From NCBI RefSeq assembly GCF_023343835.1, contig NC_064438.1, positions 57,870,578 through 57,934,577 of the forward strand: a stretch of 64,000 bases of DNA, written 5' to 3'. The translations under genes and the position numbers were made by a program. Under the pieces are notes generated by a model that worked only from the letters and a program-made list of their open reading frames with translations, did not search any database and was not told the DNA's origin. Source of the DNA: Lagopus muta (Eukaryota; Chordata; Aves; Galliformes; Phasianidae). Below are positions 430-55,690 of the stretch, piece after piece (the first letter of the stretch is position 1; each line of letters starts with the position of its first letter).

Positions 430-761
430 AAACATGGCGGCAGCACCGCCCGTAGCAGCGGAAGCGGAACGCTGGCTCCCCATTGGCCAAATCCATCACC
501 GACGAGCCCGCCCCCCCACATAACTCGCCTCCCGATAGGCTGCCGCCCTCTCTGAGCCCGCCCCCACCCCCTTGCAGTCACAGGGCGCAACCTTTGTGCG
601 CATGCTCAGCGTCCCCGGAAGTTGTGTTGTGTGGGCGCGGCGCAAGATGGCGGCTGCGGGGCGGCTGCGGGTTTGGGGCGCGCTGCGCAAACCGAGCCCG
701 GTGAAGGAACTGTGGGACGGCACGCGGTGGGAATTGCCGCGGGGCGGAGCCAGGCCCGTCG
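430..761 (+). promoter_or_regulatory. CpG-rich promoter with NRF1, ETS and YY1-type motifs
   Basis: A sharp CpG-rich block. It contains an inverted CCAAT box (ATTGG, about 482-486), GC boxes, an NRF1-like TGCGCATGCTCA (about 598-609), an ETS-like CCGGAAGT (about 614-621) and a YY1-type AAGATGGCGGC (644-654). A second ATGGCGGC lies near 434. This combination is typical of housekeeping promoters, and the YY1 element usually sits just downstream of the start site. It lies upstream of the TMX1-like exons on the same strand, so it may be the promoter of that broken gene, or of an unseen transcript on either strand. Confidence 0.6.
647..761 (+). CDS. Possible short first coding exon of unknown gene
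   Basis: The ATG at 647 sits inside the YY1-type motif and opens 38 codons (starting MAAAGRLRVWGALRK, ending in GGARPV). These run into a good donor, G|gtgagg, at 762, ending in phase 1. I do not recognise the peptide. The Arg-rich start could be a mitochondrial presequence, but that is only an impression. The next downstream exon I can identify, at 1455, begins in the matching phase, so splicing 761 to 1455 would keep frame until a TAG at 2001. A CR1-like element starts directly after the donor. This may be the first exon of the broken TMX1-like gene, an exon of a non-coding transcript, or chance. Confidence 0.3.
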
Positions 762-1200
762 GTGAGGAGCCCCCAGTGCTCCGGGACTGGTCTCGTCAGG
801 ACGGAGCAGAGCAGGAGGAGCACCTCTCTCGCCCTACTGGCCGTGCTCCGTCCATCCGGGGCACGCTGCTGCCTCAGTGCCAGCCACAGATCAGCATTCA
901 TCAGCCGTTCATCAGCTGTTGGTCAGCCGTTGCTCAGCCAGGACCCCCACGTCCTTCTCACAGCTCCTCTCCAGCAGCTCAGCCCCAACCTGTGCAGCTC
1001 CGTGAGGTTATTCCTCCCCAGCTGTAGGACCCTGCGCTCCTCCTTGTTGGACCCAAGGTTTTCCATCCCTCACCAAGAGCCAGGCTGGATTTTTTTTATG
1101 CTGCCAGCAATGTGTCAGATTCCCTCTGCCAGCCTATATTACGTGGTTACCCAGCGTGGTCTGTTGGGCTGAAAACTGCACGTCATGTGGCCCAAAAACC
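762..1200 (-). repeat. CR1-like fragment, internal region
   Basis: Antisense CR1-type sequence: 'gtgctccgggactggtctcg', 'gagcagagcaggaggagcac' and a later 'ctccccagctgtaggaccct' block. It matches 29080-29540 closely, including a variable 'catcagc/ttggtcagc' stretch near 895-945 that is expanded in the other copy. Confidence 0.75.
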
Positions 1201-1454
1201 AAACTAAAAATAAAAGTAGCTTTCTCTAAAGTGCTCCAGCCAAAGGGACTGAGGGCAATGGTTATCACCTGACATCACTTCTACCCATGGGGAAATCTCC
1301 CTTTCTGTCCAGGTGCCCTTCTTTTGCATTGTGCCATACTTTGATATGCACAAGTCTGTGTTTGATGAGGGTTTACTTGGGCATGTTTGCTTTTATTTGG
1401 GTGTATAATGCCAGTTGTATGACTGCTATTATGACAATAACTGTTTACTTACAG
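1201..1454 (+). other. Non-coding sequence upstream of the first surviving TMX1-like exon
   Basis: AT-richer sequence with no exon I can detect. The TMX1 exons that should precede 1455, including the one with the thioredoxin CxxC site, are not found here or elsewhere in the window. Confidence 0.5.
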
Positions 1455-1500
1455 GGTTAAGGGGACAATTTGTCATAACAGCTCTTCTTACCATCTATCA
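1455..1500 (+). pseudogene. TMX1: TMX1-like remnant exon a (end of thioredoxin fold)
   Basis: The exon follows 'ttacttacag' and ends at CA|gtgagt. It translates as (G)LRGQFVITALLTIYH, aligning with the TMX1 segment around the cis-proline. Thioredoxin-fold enzymes need a cis-Pro next to the active site, and here the codon is CTT (Leu). The exon begins and ends in split codons. Confidence 0.78.
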
Positions 1501-1975
1501 GTGAGTGCAATGTGACTGTTTTTGGAGGAGAGAGGAAATGTCTCTGTTTTCTGATACAAGCCAATGGGATTTGCCATGCTCTTGAAGAGTGACACCCTGA
1601 GATAACCACTGCTTTATCTACTGCGAGCTCACAATGAATGCCACTGTTATTTTTTTCCTTTTCCCTTCAGGCCATATTTATTCTGCCTTTTCCTGGGTGT
1701 TTCTGTTTTGCAACTTTTTCTCTGTGGGTTGGTATTAATGTTGTGTGGCAAGTGCATGAGGCAGATCCTTATCTTCCCATGGAATTGCAACCTGAAACAA
1801 GCCTAGATTCTTAGAACTGGTTGTGTTCAAGTTCATAAGATAACATTTTAGAGCCAATGTTATCTAAAGGAAAAATTAAGGCAAAATCATGTAGGGGCAG
1901 ATACTGAGTGTAAGCAAATGTTGCGTGTTTAGACTGCATAAAATAATGGACTTTTTTGTTGTTGTTCTTTAACAG

Positions 1976-2104
1976 CTATAAAGATGGAGTGTTTGGGAAA
2001 TAGCAGGGTGCCGGGATGAAAACTGATTTCATAAACTTTATCAAAGACCAGGAATGGAAATCCACTGAACCAGTTTCATCATGGTTTCATCCTTCCTTCT
2101 ACCT
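1976..2104 (+). pseudogene. TMX1: TMX1-like remnant exon b with TAG stop
   Basis: The acceptor is 'ttctttaacag' and the donor CT|gtaagg. The reading continues as YKDGVFGK-stop-QGAGMK and then DFINFIKDQEWKSTEPVSSW, the best-conserved block of the remnant. The stop is TAG at 2001-2003. Confidence 0.85.
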
Positions 2105-3126
2105 GTAAGGTTTGGTATGCCTCCTGTGCTTGTTTGTTGTCAAGCAGGCACACTTCAAGGGCAGGTGGGACAGCTGCAGCCTGTGTGTGCACCTCACCTG
2201 GTGCAGTTTCCTGAGCAAAGTTTACTTTTAGGTTTCAAACGCTTGAAGTGCTATGCTAGATTGAAATGTTACTTTTTTTTGGTGGCTCTTACAGGAAGCC
2301 TGGCGTTGTTACTTTGCCTGCTTACAGCACTGCCTGAATCTTGAAACTGTGCAGTTGATTTCCTGCACCCGATTTTCCTGTTACTCCATGCCAAGAAATG
2401 CATGAAATAAAGTGCTTATTTTAGGATCAATAAGTTTTCTATTGGGAATGTACAGTACCAGCTCCTTTCTGCATGTTGAAGCAGTGCACAGGACTGGTGA
2501 ATGTCCGCTTCTGCAACTCAGTCTTTAGAAATTGATGTAGTCTTAATGTTCAGAATTCTCTTTATTTTTATAAGGATCATCAATACTTAATGGTGAAGTT
2601 TCACAATAGCAGGGAAATGTCAGAACCAGCAGAATATATGTGGCAGATAGCCTGGTCTTTGCTTGTGTGTAAGCTGCAGCTAAACTCAACTGTCTGAATC
2701 TCTCTCAGCTCTTATACCTTTTATTCAGTAGGCTGATTCTTTGGTTTGGGAAGTGCCCAAATTGCTTAATTAGTGATATCCTTAATAGAGTTCCAGTTGT
2801 TGGGCCATAAATAACTGACGAATTTGTTACTTTTGTTTATGTTCTGTGTCAGCAGGTTTAAGTCAAGGGATTTTGTCAAGGAGTTGGTAGTTGTCCTATG
2901 TGGAATATTGTACAGAGTGATGTCACTTCTGGAGGTGCTTCATGGGAAATTGGTGCTTAGTGAACAACAGACAGAATAGAAGCTAAAAGCAAATTAATCC
3001 AGAGGGAAACCAGGCATGAGCAGTTGTTCAATGTGCAACTAAATAATGGCTCATCAGGCAAATCAGAAGACAGTAGATTCTGATTGACGTGGGTATTTTC
3101 ACATACACTTTCCTGCTTTGTTTCAG
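2105..3126 (+). other. Intron-like sequence between TMX1-like remnant exons b and c
   Basis: About 1 kb of AT-rich unique sequence with no further exon. AATAAA occurs at about 2406-2411, but nothing else suggests a 3' end here. Confidence 0.5.
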
Positions 3127-3172
3127 GACGAGCTGTGTGTCAGCTTTGTGACAGATGTCAGCGTGGGTCAGG
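3127..3172 (+). pseudogene. TMX1: TMX1-like remnant exon c with TGA stop
   Basis: The acceptor 'gctttgtttcag' is followed by 46 nt and the donor AGG|gtatgt. The phase completes the Leu codon of exon b and reads TSCVSAL-stop-QMSAWVR, matching the TMX1 juxtamembrane linker position by position. TGA occupies 3149-3151. Confidence 0.75.
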
Positions 3173-3264
3173 GTATGTGCTTCTATTGACTTGATTTCCA
3201 TGTTTATTTCAACATTTATGATACTCAGTCACTCTTGAAACGATTCTCCTGCCTTCTGTTGTAG

Positions 3265-3366
3265 CACTGCCATGGTTATTTAACAGAAAGCATTGGAATG
3301 CAGATTTGGGGCTCGTGTGCTGTGTTCCTGTTGGCCACCCTCTTCTCAGGGCTGATCCTGCAGCTT
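3265..3366 (+). pseudogene. TMX1: TMX1-like remnant exon d (transmembrane segment)
   Basis: The acceptor is 'ccttctgttgtag' and the donor CTT|gtaagt. Its 34 codons in phase 0 read as a short lumenal piece (HCHGYLTESIG) followed by a hydrophobic helix containing AVFLLATLFSGLI, the TMX1 transmembrane region. No stop lies in this exon. Confidence 0.8.
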
Positions 3367-3440
3367 GTAAGTGAGCCACTTGAAGCAGGTCAGTTTGTGT
3401 CTGCTGCATGCCTGTGGTTTAAGCTTATCTTCCATTCCAG

Positions 3441-3509
3441 ATAATGGAGTTCTTAGCAGACTGCCTCTGTGCTTCCAAAAACACAGGCCAGCACAGTGCC
3501 CTTATTCAA
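3441..3509 (+). pseudogene. TMX1: TMX1-like remnant exon e (cytosolic juxtamembrane)
   Basis: The acceptor is 'cttccattccag' and the donor CAA|gtaagc. Its 23 codons in phase 0 begin IMEFLADCLCASK, matching the Cys-containing stretch after the TMX1 helix. The basic run that follows in the family has eroded. No acidic last exon was found downstream. Confidence 0.72.
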
Positions 3510-4075: not shown

Positions 4076-6714
4076 GCCCCGACTGGCCCTGCTCCCTGTG
4101 CTTGTTACTCCCTGTATCATCAACATGCCTCTCTAGGCTGGGTTCCGACTGCTTTCCAGACTGCTGTCCGGCCTGAGAGCCTCGGATCCATTACTCAGCA
4201 GCACTTCAGGGGTTCTTTATAGCAGGGAAGCAAAACTGCAGCTGTTTCCATGGAAAAAAAGAATGCTGTAACACTATAGTGAGTGAGCCATTAGTGAGGC
4301 GCTGCTGTGAAAAGACGAGTTCAAATGATTCCTTGGACTGAAGCTGCACTGAGATACTTGTGGTCTCTAGTTGGGACTGCCTTGCATGTCTCATGGTCGT
4401 TTGAGTCATTTGGGTTAGATGATTTTTATGGCTTGGGAAAGAGCTTTCATGCATACCAGGCTTTGAGTGATGGCCGGCGGTGGGGAGATGTATTCTTGTG
4501 TTGCAAAAAGAATGTGGGCCAGTTGACAAACGATGTTTAAAATTCAGTTCTTTGTAACCTCGTTGCATTTGCCAAAAATCCTGCTGCATATGGATGCAAA
4601 TCATCTCTGCTACAGACTGCTTCCTCCTCTTGTCCACCTACACGCAGTATTTCAAACCCTACCAGCCGTGGTGGCCAACGCCGGTGCGTTTATCTTGGAG
4701 TAGGAAGCTAAAATGAGGATTGGCCGAGTTCTGCAATGAAAGATCCTTGGCAGGGGGGACAAATCAACACAAGGTATGCTCAGCAGCCTGAGCCAGCATT
4801 CGACTGCTGGCTTCTCTCAGCAGAGTGTCTGTTTTGCCTCTGCTTCCTTGGTCTTTCCCCCATCTCTTCCCTTACAGAGTATAAGAGCAGGGCAGTGTTG
4901 TGGCTGCTCTTGGTGCGTGTGCAGTTAGCTGGAAAAAGGCAGCGATGCTCACTGCAGTTTCTCCTCAACAGGAACAAGGAATTTGTATTGCCTGGGGAGT
5001 GATTGAATGCTCACACAAGCCCAACTTCCCTCCTCTTCCACTCGATTTATTATGTATAACAGAAAGTAATAGCCAGTCCAAAGGGAAAACAGCTAAAAGT
5101 TGAGCTGAAATGGATGATTAAAATAGTTGGGATTAGCTTCAAGAGAAACAATGAAGTAGCTGTCTGGCAGTTTGTGTTTGCCAGCTTGTCAGTTAGCCCT
5201 AGGCCTGGTTTTGAAACGGGCAGAGTTCCATTTGTGACAAAAACCAACAGGAAAGGGGAAAACTCAATATGTTGTAGCAGTGTTTCTGTGTTTAGAATTA
5301 AGAGAATACAACTCTGATAGTAATTTGAAGACTTTTTTACTTAGAGGTGAGAGAATGTGCCTGGTGATGCTGTCTCGCCCCCTTTTCTGCATCAGGTCTG
5401 AGTCTGTGTCACAGCACAGTGAGGCTGTCTGCCTTGTGGATGCCATTGCACGAGGTTTGTTTTGCACTGGTGAGGCTCAGATCTGCCACGAGCACAGTGG
5501 CATCGATCTGTGCCATCTGACTCCTCGGGCTGTCCAACACTGCTGACAGATCACAGCACGTATCTGTCTTGGAATCTGCCAAACAAAGAGAAAAACTCGA
5601 GGAGGCCAAGGGCTGTGTTTGTATGGCCTGAATTCCATTGATGTGCTTTGTCAAGTCACAGGGGAGAAGAGCCCAGAGCCCCCAGAAGTGCTGGCACAGA
5701 GAAATGGGCAGGATGTGAGCTGGATGGGGTCGGGGCTGACAGCTGCGCTGCTGGAGGAGCTGGAGTGCAGGAATGAGTGGGGATGTGCTTGGCCTTGTCT
5801 TTTGGCTCTCAGGCAGGTGTGATGCCGCTGCTCCGTGGCAGTGAGGAAGAGCTGAGTGAAGCCTTCCCTTATCACTGAGCCTGGCTGGCGTGTTCATGTG
5901 GGCTGTTCAACCCCTGAGGCTTCCAGGAAAATGTCATGCATTTCCCTTGTTGAATTTTCCTTGCTGTTCACTGGGCTGCAAAGCTGATTTCTTAGGTGAC
6001 TGGAAAAGCGTCTTGGCTCTGAGGATAAGGAACCATGTCCTCCTCTCCTCATCTCCTGGGCAGGATTCGAGCTTTTGTTGGAGGTTTCTCTGTTTTCTTT
6101 GGCAAAAATGAAAAGAAAGAGCCCTGCCGGGGTCTGCTGGCCCCTGGGGGAGAGCTGTTTGGCTCGGTGCTTTGCTGGAGCTCTGAGCGATGACTAAATC
6201 CACCCAAATCCCACTCATGGTGCTGCAGAGACCTTGCTGGGCTGCAGGAGCACAGGGCCGGGTCAGAGGCATAAGAAAACATCTTTTTTTTTTTCTTTAG
6301 GAACTGCTGACTAAATAACCCTTGGCTAGATTTATATAGAGCACATGATATCCTGATGTCCTGTGGTCACTTCTGGAAACACCTCATTTGTCTTCTGCTC
6401 ACCCAGGAAATCACAAACCTTGGCTGCTGCCACGGCAGTGATTTCAGCTCCAAAAATTGTGAAATTTGGGGGCAGGATCTTGAGAGATGTATCTGGCCAT
6501 GTGCTCTTTGGGTTTGTCTGTCGCAGTTGTGTAGTTGGCCATGAGCCGATGTTCCTCACCAAAGCTCAAACGTCCCAGGCAGAGACCTGCTCCATTTGGA
6601 GCACAGATCTGTTTGTAAAGGACTTTGGAACATGTCTCACCATGGTTTACTCCAGTTTTACCCTGGAAGGCGGTGGAAGAAGTTGTTGGGTTGTAAAAAG
6701 GAAACCAACCCTTT
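4076..6714. other. Intergenic, no gene supported
   Basis: About 2.6 kb of mixed-composition unique sequence. Open frames on both strands are short and resemble nothing I know. A poly-T run lies at about 6283-6298. Confidence 0.5.
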
Positions 6715-29025: not shown

Positions 29026-29560
29026 AGGATGGAACCTGTGCACGTCAATGAGCCGCCATCTGTCTTGAACTGAAGAGCCCAGAACTGTCCCCAGTGCTCC
29101 ACATGTGGCCTCCCCAGGGCAGAGCAGAGCAGGAGGAGCACCTCTCTCACTCTGCTGGCAGTGCTCCATGCATCCCGGGACGCCACTGCCTTCTTGGCCT
29201 CACACTGTTGCCTCAGGGCCAACCATTGGTCAGCTGTTGGTCAACCGTTGGTCAACAGTTGGTCAACCATCAGTCAACCATAGGTCAACCATCGGTCAAC
29301 CATTTGTCAGCTGTTGGTCAACAGTTGGCCAACCAGGACCCCCACGTCCCTCTCTGCAGAGCTCCTCTCCAGCAGCTCAGCCCCAACCTGTGCAGCTCCA
29401 TGAGGTTCTTCCTCCCCAGCTGTAGGGACCCCGCACTCCTTGTCGAACCCAAGGATTTCGAGCCCTCACCAAAAGCCAGGCTGGATTTTTCCATGCTGCC
29501 AGCACAGTGCACTCGCATCATGGAATTACCCAGCTTGATCCTTTGGGCTGAAAACAGATT
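29026..29560 (-). repeat. CR1-like fragment with internal VNTR
   Basis: It shares 'gagcagagcaggaggagcac', 'acccccacgtccctctctgc' and 'ctccccagctgtaggga' with 762-1172. Between about 29223 and 29335 it carries about ten tandem copies of TTGGTCAACCGTT/CAT. The sister copy has only a few diverged units there. Confidence 0.8.
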
Positions 29561-35935: not shown

Positions 35936-44290
<8,355 letters not shown>

Positions 44291-54519: not shown

Positions 54520-55690
54520 GGGATGGAAGGATGGATGGAAGGAGGGAGTGGAGGAGGGAGAAAGAGAGGGAGGGATGGATGGATGGATGGATGGATGGAT
54601 GGATGGATGGATGGATGGATGGATGGATGGATGGATGGATGGATGGAGGGACAGATGGAGGGATGGATGGATGGATGGATGGATGGATGGATGGATGGAT
54701 GGATGGATGGATGGATGGAGGGACGGATGGAGGGATGGATGGATGGATGGATGGATGGATGGATGGATGGATGGATGGATGGATGGATGGATGGATGGGT
54801 GGATGGATGGATGGAGGAAGGGATAGAGGGATAGTGGAATGGGTGGATGGAGGGATGGAGGGATGGAGGAATGGAGGGATGGATGGATGGGTGGGTGGGT
54901 GGGTGGATGGATGGATGGATGGATGGATGGATGGATGGATGGATGGAGGGATGGATGGGTGGATGGAGGGATGGATGGGTGGATGGAGAGATGGATGGAT
55001 GGATGGATGGAGGGATGGATGGGTGGATGGAGGGATGGATGGGTGGATGGAGAGATGGATGGAGGGATCGAGTGATAGTGGAACGGATGGATGGATGGAT
55101 GGATGGATGGAGGGAGGGAGGGAGGGAGGGACAGATGGAGGGAGGGACGGATGGAGGGAGGGACGGATGGAGGGATGGAGGGATGGAGGGATGGATGGAT
55201 GGATGGATGGAGGGACGGATGGAGGGAGGGAGGGAGAGATGGAGGGAGGGACAGATGGAGGGATGGAGGGATGGAGGGAGGGATGAATGGGTGGATGGAT
55301 GGATAGATGGATGGATGGAGGGATGGATGGATGGAGGAATGGAGGAATGGAGGGATGGAGGGATGGAGGGATGGAGAGATGGAATGATGGATGGGTGGAT
55401 GGATGGATGGAGGGATCGAGGGATAGTGGAATGGATGGATGGATGGATGAATGGATGGATGGATGGATGGATGGATGGATGGATGGATGGATGGAGGAGG
55501 AGTAGAGGGATGGAAAGAGGGGTGGATGGATGGATGAAGAGATCGATGATGGACAAATGGAGGGATGAAGGGATAATGGACAGATGAATGGATGGATGAT
55601 AGATAAGTGAATGATGGAGGGAAGGATGGAGGTACGAATAGATGATGGAGGGAAGGATGGATGACAGACAGAGGGGTGACAGATGAAAGG
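54520..55690 (+). repeat. 1.1-kb (GGAT)n/(GGAG) tetranucleotide tract
   Basis: Pure GGAT arrays (54570-54645, 54663-54716, 54734-54795, 54905-54945 and others) alternate with GGAG/GGGT variants. A marker 'gatagtggaa' recurs at 54830, 55074 and 55422, showing higher-order block duplication. Open frames in all six frames (Trp/Met/Asp/Gly or Ile/His/Pro/Ser) are artefacts of the repeat. Confidence 0.98.

Follow-up and report, generated by a model that had tools for sequence, protein, structure and literature searches.

Remains of the redox enzyme gene TMX1 upstream of FRMD6 in the rock ptarmigan: a very probable unitary pseudogene

In mammals, TMX1 precedes FRMD6, and both are read from the same strand. 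In human cells, the triglyceride synthase DIESL/TMEM68 is reported to be bound by TMX1 and kept in check by it (PMC10482677; commentary PMC11749848), and loss of TMX1 leads to unrestrained lipid droplets, for which neither TMX3 nor TMX4 substitutes (PMC10482677). Decay in place of a conserved vertebrate gene has been described for STK33, a unitary pseudogene in neognath birds (all 28 neognaths studied), with exons lost, indels and stops, the sister lineage being intact (PMC4509753). The rock ptarmigan locus described here resembles STK33 in these respects; it concerns another gene, and the STK33 loss is wider and older, whereas TMX1 has been kept by ducks. No report of TMX1 loss in galliforms was found in the titles and abstract openings of the literature searched, and "TMX" is absent from the main text of an article on avian missing genes (PMC12954441).

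The locus shares with vertebrate TMX1 (TXNDC1) its exon order, its phases, 76 of 102 swan residues over exons 4 to 7 and its place upstream of FRMD6. It differs from an intact TMX1 in lacking the signal core, the CPAC exon and the cis-proline, in carrying two stops and one frameshift, and in that the last exon was not found. Within the window (the whole stretch of 64,000 nucleotides that was analysed), five equivalents of TMX1 exons 3 to 7 were re-derived from the letters; they are collinear on the plus strand, with AG/GT borders and correct phases. The exon 3 equivalent (1455..1500) has a leucine codon (CTT, 1487-1489) in place of the cis-proline. The exon 4 equivalent (1976..2104) is interrupted by a TAG at 2001-2003, and the exon 5 equivalent (3127..3172) by a TGA at 3149-3151. 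The exon 6 equivalent (3265..3366), which corresponds to the transmembrane segment, is still open in frame, a point that counts against full decay. The exon 7 equivalent (3441..3509) carries a one-base frameshift near 3477-3481, within a run of A, visible as a frame jump in the tblastn match. When spliced and read through, the five exons give consecutive TMX1 segments, LRGQFVITALLTIYHYKDGVFGK*QGAGMKTDFINFIKDQEWKSTEPVSSWF... The five exons, both stops and the leucine substitution had been claimed in a preliminary description of this DNA, and all were reproduced at the same coordinates. Its reading of a non-processed pseudogene also held: the introns are retained, so this is no processed copy, and the two stops are joined by the frameshift and the loss of the cis-proline. 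The exon 7 frameshift had escaped that description, as had the exon 1 relic and the repeat reported below. CPAC in a thioredoxin domain, the cis-proline and an open frame are all wanting, and a TMX1 redox enzyme is impossible from the ptarmigan locus.

The assignment to TMX1, likewise first made from the letters, agrees with the sequence matches. The first 52 residues of the spliced relic matched human TMX1 in PDB entry 1x5e ("Thioredoxin domain containing protein 1") at E 1.2e-18, and this was the sole PDB sequence match at E up to 1. The top protein match is TMX1; among the 21 matches to the relic at E <= 0.001, 14 are TMX1 by name, three, all from birds, are otherwise named (uncharacterised, thioredoxin domain-containing, hypothetical) and four are nameless.

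Upstream of exon 3, a relic of TMX1 exon 1 (647..745, plus strand) reads MAAAGRLRVWGALRKPSPVKELWDGTRWELPRG against MAAVGWGCALLALLLAAAGGAAALGRPSPVRVLSDGTWRELLHG in the swan. It keeps MAA.G and PSPVKELWDGT (PSPVRVLSDGT in the swan), the hydrophobic core of the signal peptide is absent, and a GT at 762 may have served as the donor of this exon. Swan exon 1 as a tblastn query gave this relic as the top place in the window (E 1.7e-4; matched stretch 602-745), as did exon 1 of Cairina (E 5.7e-4), and not one of 300 dinucleotide-shuffled versions of bases 1-1454 scored as high as its 28.5 bits, the top value being 23.9. Tinamou exon 1 missed the relic, and its best place in the window was 610-696 in another frame (E 0.012). 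The relic is short, and the tinamou result counts against its identification. The stretch between the relic and exon 3 should contain exon 2 with its introns; in it stands an interspersed repeat (about 771..1176), presumably CR1-like, which occurs again in the window at 29089-29555 (78-85% identity in the matched pieces). Another interspersed repeat, at 218-370, matches 10 other pieces of the window, four at 90-91% identity. An open frame of 126 codons (647-1027) begins at the former TMX1 start ATG, crosses the exon 1 relic and continues into the CR1-like repeat; it is probably due to chance, and is preceded by what looks like a former GC-rich promoter.

The exon that would encode the active site was not found. 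Swan exon 2 (CPAC), used as a tblastn query, had no match at E <= 1 in 762-1454; its matches in 3510-36600 were short, weak and unconvincing, and the 20 kb upstream yielded only a weak exon 2 match without CxxC. Assembly-wide no TMX1 exon 2 was found, the CxxC region finding its closest counterpart in a paralogue, at 52%. Exons 1, 2 (CPAC) and 3 (cis-proline) of that paralogue were recovered from the ptarmigan genome in this way, which served as a positive control. Upstream of exon 3, then, the exon 1 relic was found and a CxxC exon, which the preliminary description had set against its own reading, was not. Swan exon 8 gave nothing at E <= 1 in 3510-36600, and crocodile exon 8 gave a single match there (E 0.98), with no convincing exon 8. 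Exon 8 candidates near 41.8-42.1 kb, from the best 12 matches listed per query across the window, were rejected as low-complexity glutamate stretches on the minus strand.

We then compared the locus with the TMX1 entries of other birds. The chicken entry (P0001, 176 aa) and the turkey entry (P0003, 147 aa) are without the PF00085 thioredoxin domain, which is present in the full-length TMX1 of Aythya, Cygnus and Cairina and in 119 of the 120 rows listed from a TMX1 search (the best 120 of 499, many vertebrates). Short or incomplete models that lack the domain are on record for other species too (e.g. Antrostomus, Chrysemys, Melospiza), so its absence from a model says little by itself; unlike these others, the chicken and turkey models begin where the ptarmigan has intron. 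The chicken model starts in sequence of no TMX1 exon, has no recognisable exon 3, continues stop-free through exons 4 to 7 and ends in a new last exon. The turkey model begins in what is intron at 1634 of the window and switches frame inside exon 4, near the TAG site. That chicken and turkey share the loss of exon 2 is suggested by these protein models. No full-length galliform TMX1 was present by name in the best 120 of 499 rows (cluster members behind the rows are unnamed); in a second listing, seen in full (21/21 rows), chicken and turkey are the only galliforms named, and there is no full-length galliform protein. A 2018 chicken paper includes TMX1 D77G among coding SNPs (PMC6210987), a sign that the chicken entry is accepted at face value.

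Residues were compared over a core of 104 positions in exons 4 to 7, using nine intact birds chosen from 15 bird rows named. Swan and kiwi agree at 102/104 positions and swan and chicken at 83/104, beside the 76/102 of swan and window. At the 87 sites invariant in the nine intact birds, the chicken has 13 changes, the window 20 (18 replacements and two stops) and the turkey 19, a count that is too high because the tail of the turkey model reads intron. Six changes at invariant sites are common to chicken, turkey and window. These six, together with the lowered agreement, suggest that constraint was lost before the chicken, turkey and grouse lineages parted; alternatively, the shared derived residues could predate the loss, having arisen in a still-working gene. 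Since the turkey and a fragment, P0021, have cysteine at the position of the window's TGA, this stop looks later than the shared decay. The shifted reading of exon 7 is common to the window and P0021 and is absent from the chicken model. Agreement between window and P0021 was 10/15 in exon 5, 25/33 in exon 6 (out of frame), 21/23 in exon 7 and 48/76 in the intron; as a check on neutral drift this sample was set aside, being too small and disturbed by an indel. To judge from these comparisons of sequence, the decay probably extends beyond the ptarmigan and is not private to this species.

The form of the chicken model also suggests a different history, in which the locus was remodelled and not killed, galliforms making a short protein that lacks the thioredoxin domain, keeps the transmembrane segment and perhaps binds DIESL. 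The 176-residue chicken model has new first and last exons around the open frame of exons 4 to 7, which would still allow that species to produce a short membrane protein. The window contains matches to both new exons: that to the first coding exon lies at 1287..1367 (plus strand; 85% over 27 residues) and corresponds to no exon of an intact TMX1, while that to the last lies at 6095..6190 (plus strand; 75% over 32 residues) and is unlike the true exon 8. In the ptarmigan, however, the two stops and the frameshift break that very frame, and redox-cysteine mutation is reported to go with much less TMX1 protein in human cells (PMC10482677). We regard such remodelling as improbable.

The preliminary description had allowed for either a unitary loss or a duplication, in which this copy would have decayed and a functional TMX1 would lie elsewhere. 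GC-rich bird genes can be missed by assemblies, and such a copy might sit in an unassembled stretch. A search of the genome (1,026,658,476 bases, 165 contigs) with the relic, in which 9/9 candidates were scored, gave nine matches; the pseudogene locus accounts for four of them and the paralogue for two, and the other three are weak. Swan TMX1, with 23/23 candidates scored, gave 22 matches at E of 10 or less. Two of these fall on exons 4 and 6 of the pseudogene locus and three on the paralogue; of the 17 at other places, 11 were aligned, and 11/11 proved to have CGHC or CGPC. Neither query thus recovered a second or intact TMX1 among the scored candidates of this assembly. The paralogue, which we take to be TMX4, lies at C2:95643270-95662493 on the minus strand; it has the same domain plan as TMX1, and its exons retain their own CPAC and cis-proline. 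The relic is 28-38% identical to it, against 76/102 residues for swan TMX1, so that another TMX family member is not the better match. The relic also occupies TMX1's own place. As had been expected from the gene order, coding exons of FRMD6 were found downstream on the same strand (36687..44287, plus), by tblastn with a human FRMD6 sequence that was covered at residues 1-91 and 96-622, the sole in-match stop falling in an alignment gap. With the chicken and turkey entries broken as well, and no full-length galliform protein named in either listing, a surviving duplicate appears very improbable; of the two readings first offered, the unitary loss stood and the decayed duplicate did not.

Other features of the downstream part of the window are a pyrimidine-rich array of CCCTTT and TTCCTC units between FRMD6 exons (41599-42084), in keeping with the C skew of the 40-42 kb region, and a long GGAT tetranucleotide array of about 287 copies (54521-55663), in keeping with the strong G skew of the 54-56 kb region. 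An Rfam scan of the 64 kb window gave 0 matches at gathering scores.

Single-base lesions can be artefacts, but an assembly or sequencing error is scarcely conceivable here, with lesions of such differing kinds (two stops, a frameshift, missing exons, a repeat and 18 replacements at 87 invariant sites), chicken and turkey models in a parallel state, and, if the assembly is bLagMut1, a genome reported to be built from HiFi reads (PMC10320755).

We conclude that the locus is, with high probability, a unitary, unprocessed pseudogene of TMX1 and not a decayed duplicate: its introns are kept, no working copy was found elsewhere in this assembly, and the gene is intact in the relatives Cygnus, Cairina and Aythya. 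A unitary pseudogene is a known kind of relic, and the case for it here is well supported. Purifying selection on TMX1 would have ended in the line of chicken, turkey and grouse after its split from ducks; the active site would have gone through a deletion or along with the insertion of the repeat, and the leftover exons would have drifted ever since. Less certainly, the redox work may be covered by TMX4 or by PDI-family enzymes, and the lipid synthase DIESL/TMEM68 may run without its TMX1 brake.

The ptarmigan has two tandem copies of TMEM68, at C3:38198512-38210799 and C3:38218187-38230509 (within C3:38194000-38233999), and both retain the catalytic His-Asp pair. Compared with human TMEM68, they agree at 177/311 and 197/328 residues, i.e. 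at most 57% and 60%, an upper estimate because the higher identity was taken wherever matches overlapped. The first TMEM68 search had a stop in two of nine matches, at exon edges as far as displayed; a later count gave no stops. Since mouse and fly TMEM68 are reported to be 42% identical (PMC5417663), the ptarmigan copies look diverged for a bird. A TMEM68-like gene on chicken chromosome 2 has been reported as an egg-number candidate in layers (PMC12203006). A role of TMEM68 in yolk is disfavoured because disruption of zebrafish tmem68 is reported to have left yolk opacity unchanged (PMC11663968).

Taken together with the human data, the loss suggests that these birds may be natural TMX1 knockouts with released DIESL. 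A further proposal, that chicken-like birds lost TMX1 altogether, leaving the DIESL/TMEM68 route permanently unbraked, with the two diverged tandem copies of TMEM68 as an adaptation to it, is doubtful and is offered as speculation. The chicken "TMX1" entry appears to be a remnant without the enzyme domain, and data gathered under that name may mislead. The domain was present in 119 of the best 120 of 499 rows, yet the gene is dead in this grouse. Birds without TMX1 but with TMEM68 allow one to ask how the pathway is otherwise restrained, and, if the proposal is true, galliforms would be a natural experiment on the control of the DIESL/TMEM68 route of fat synthesis.
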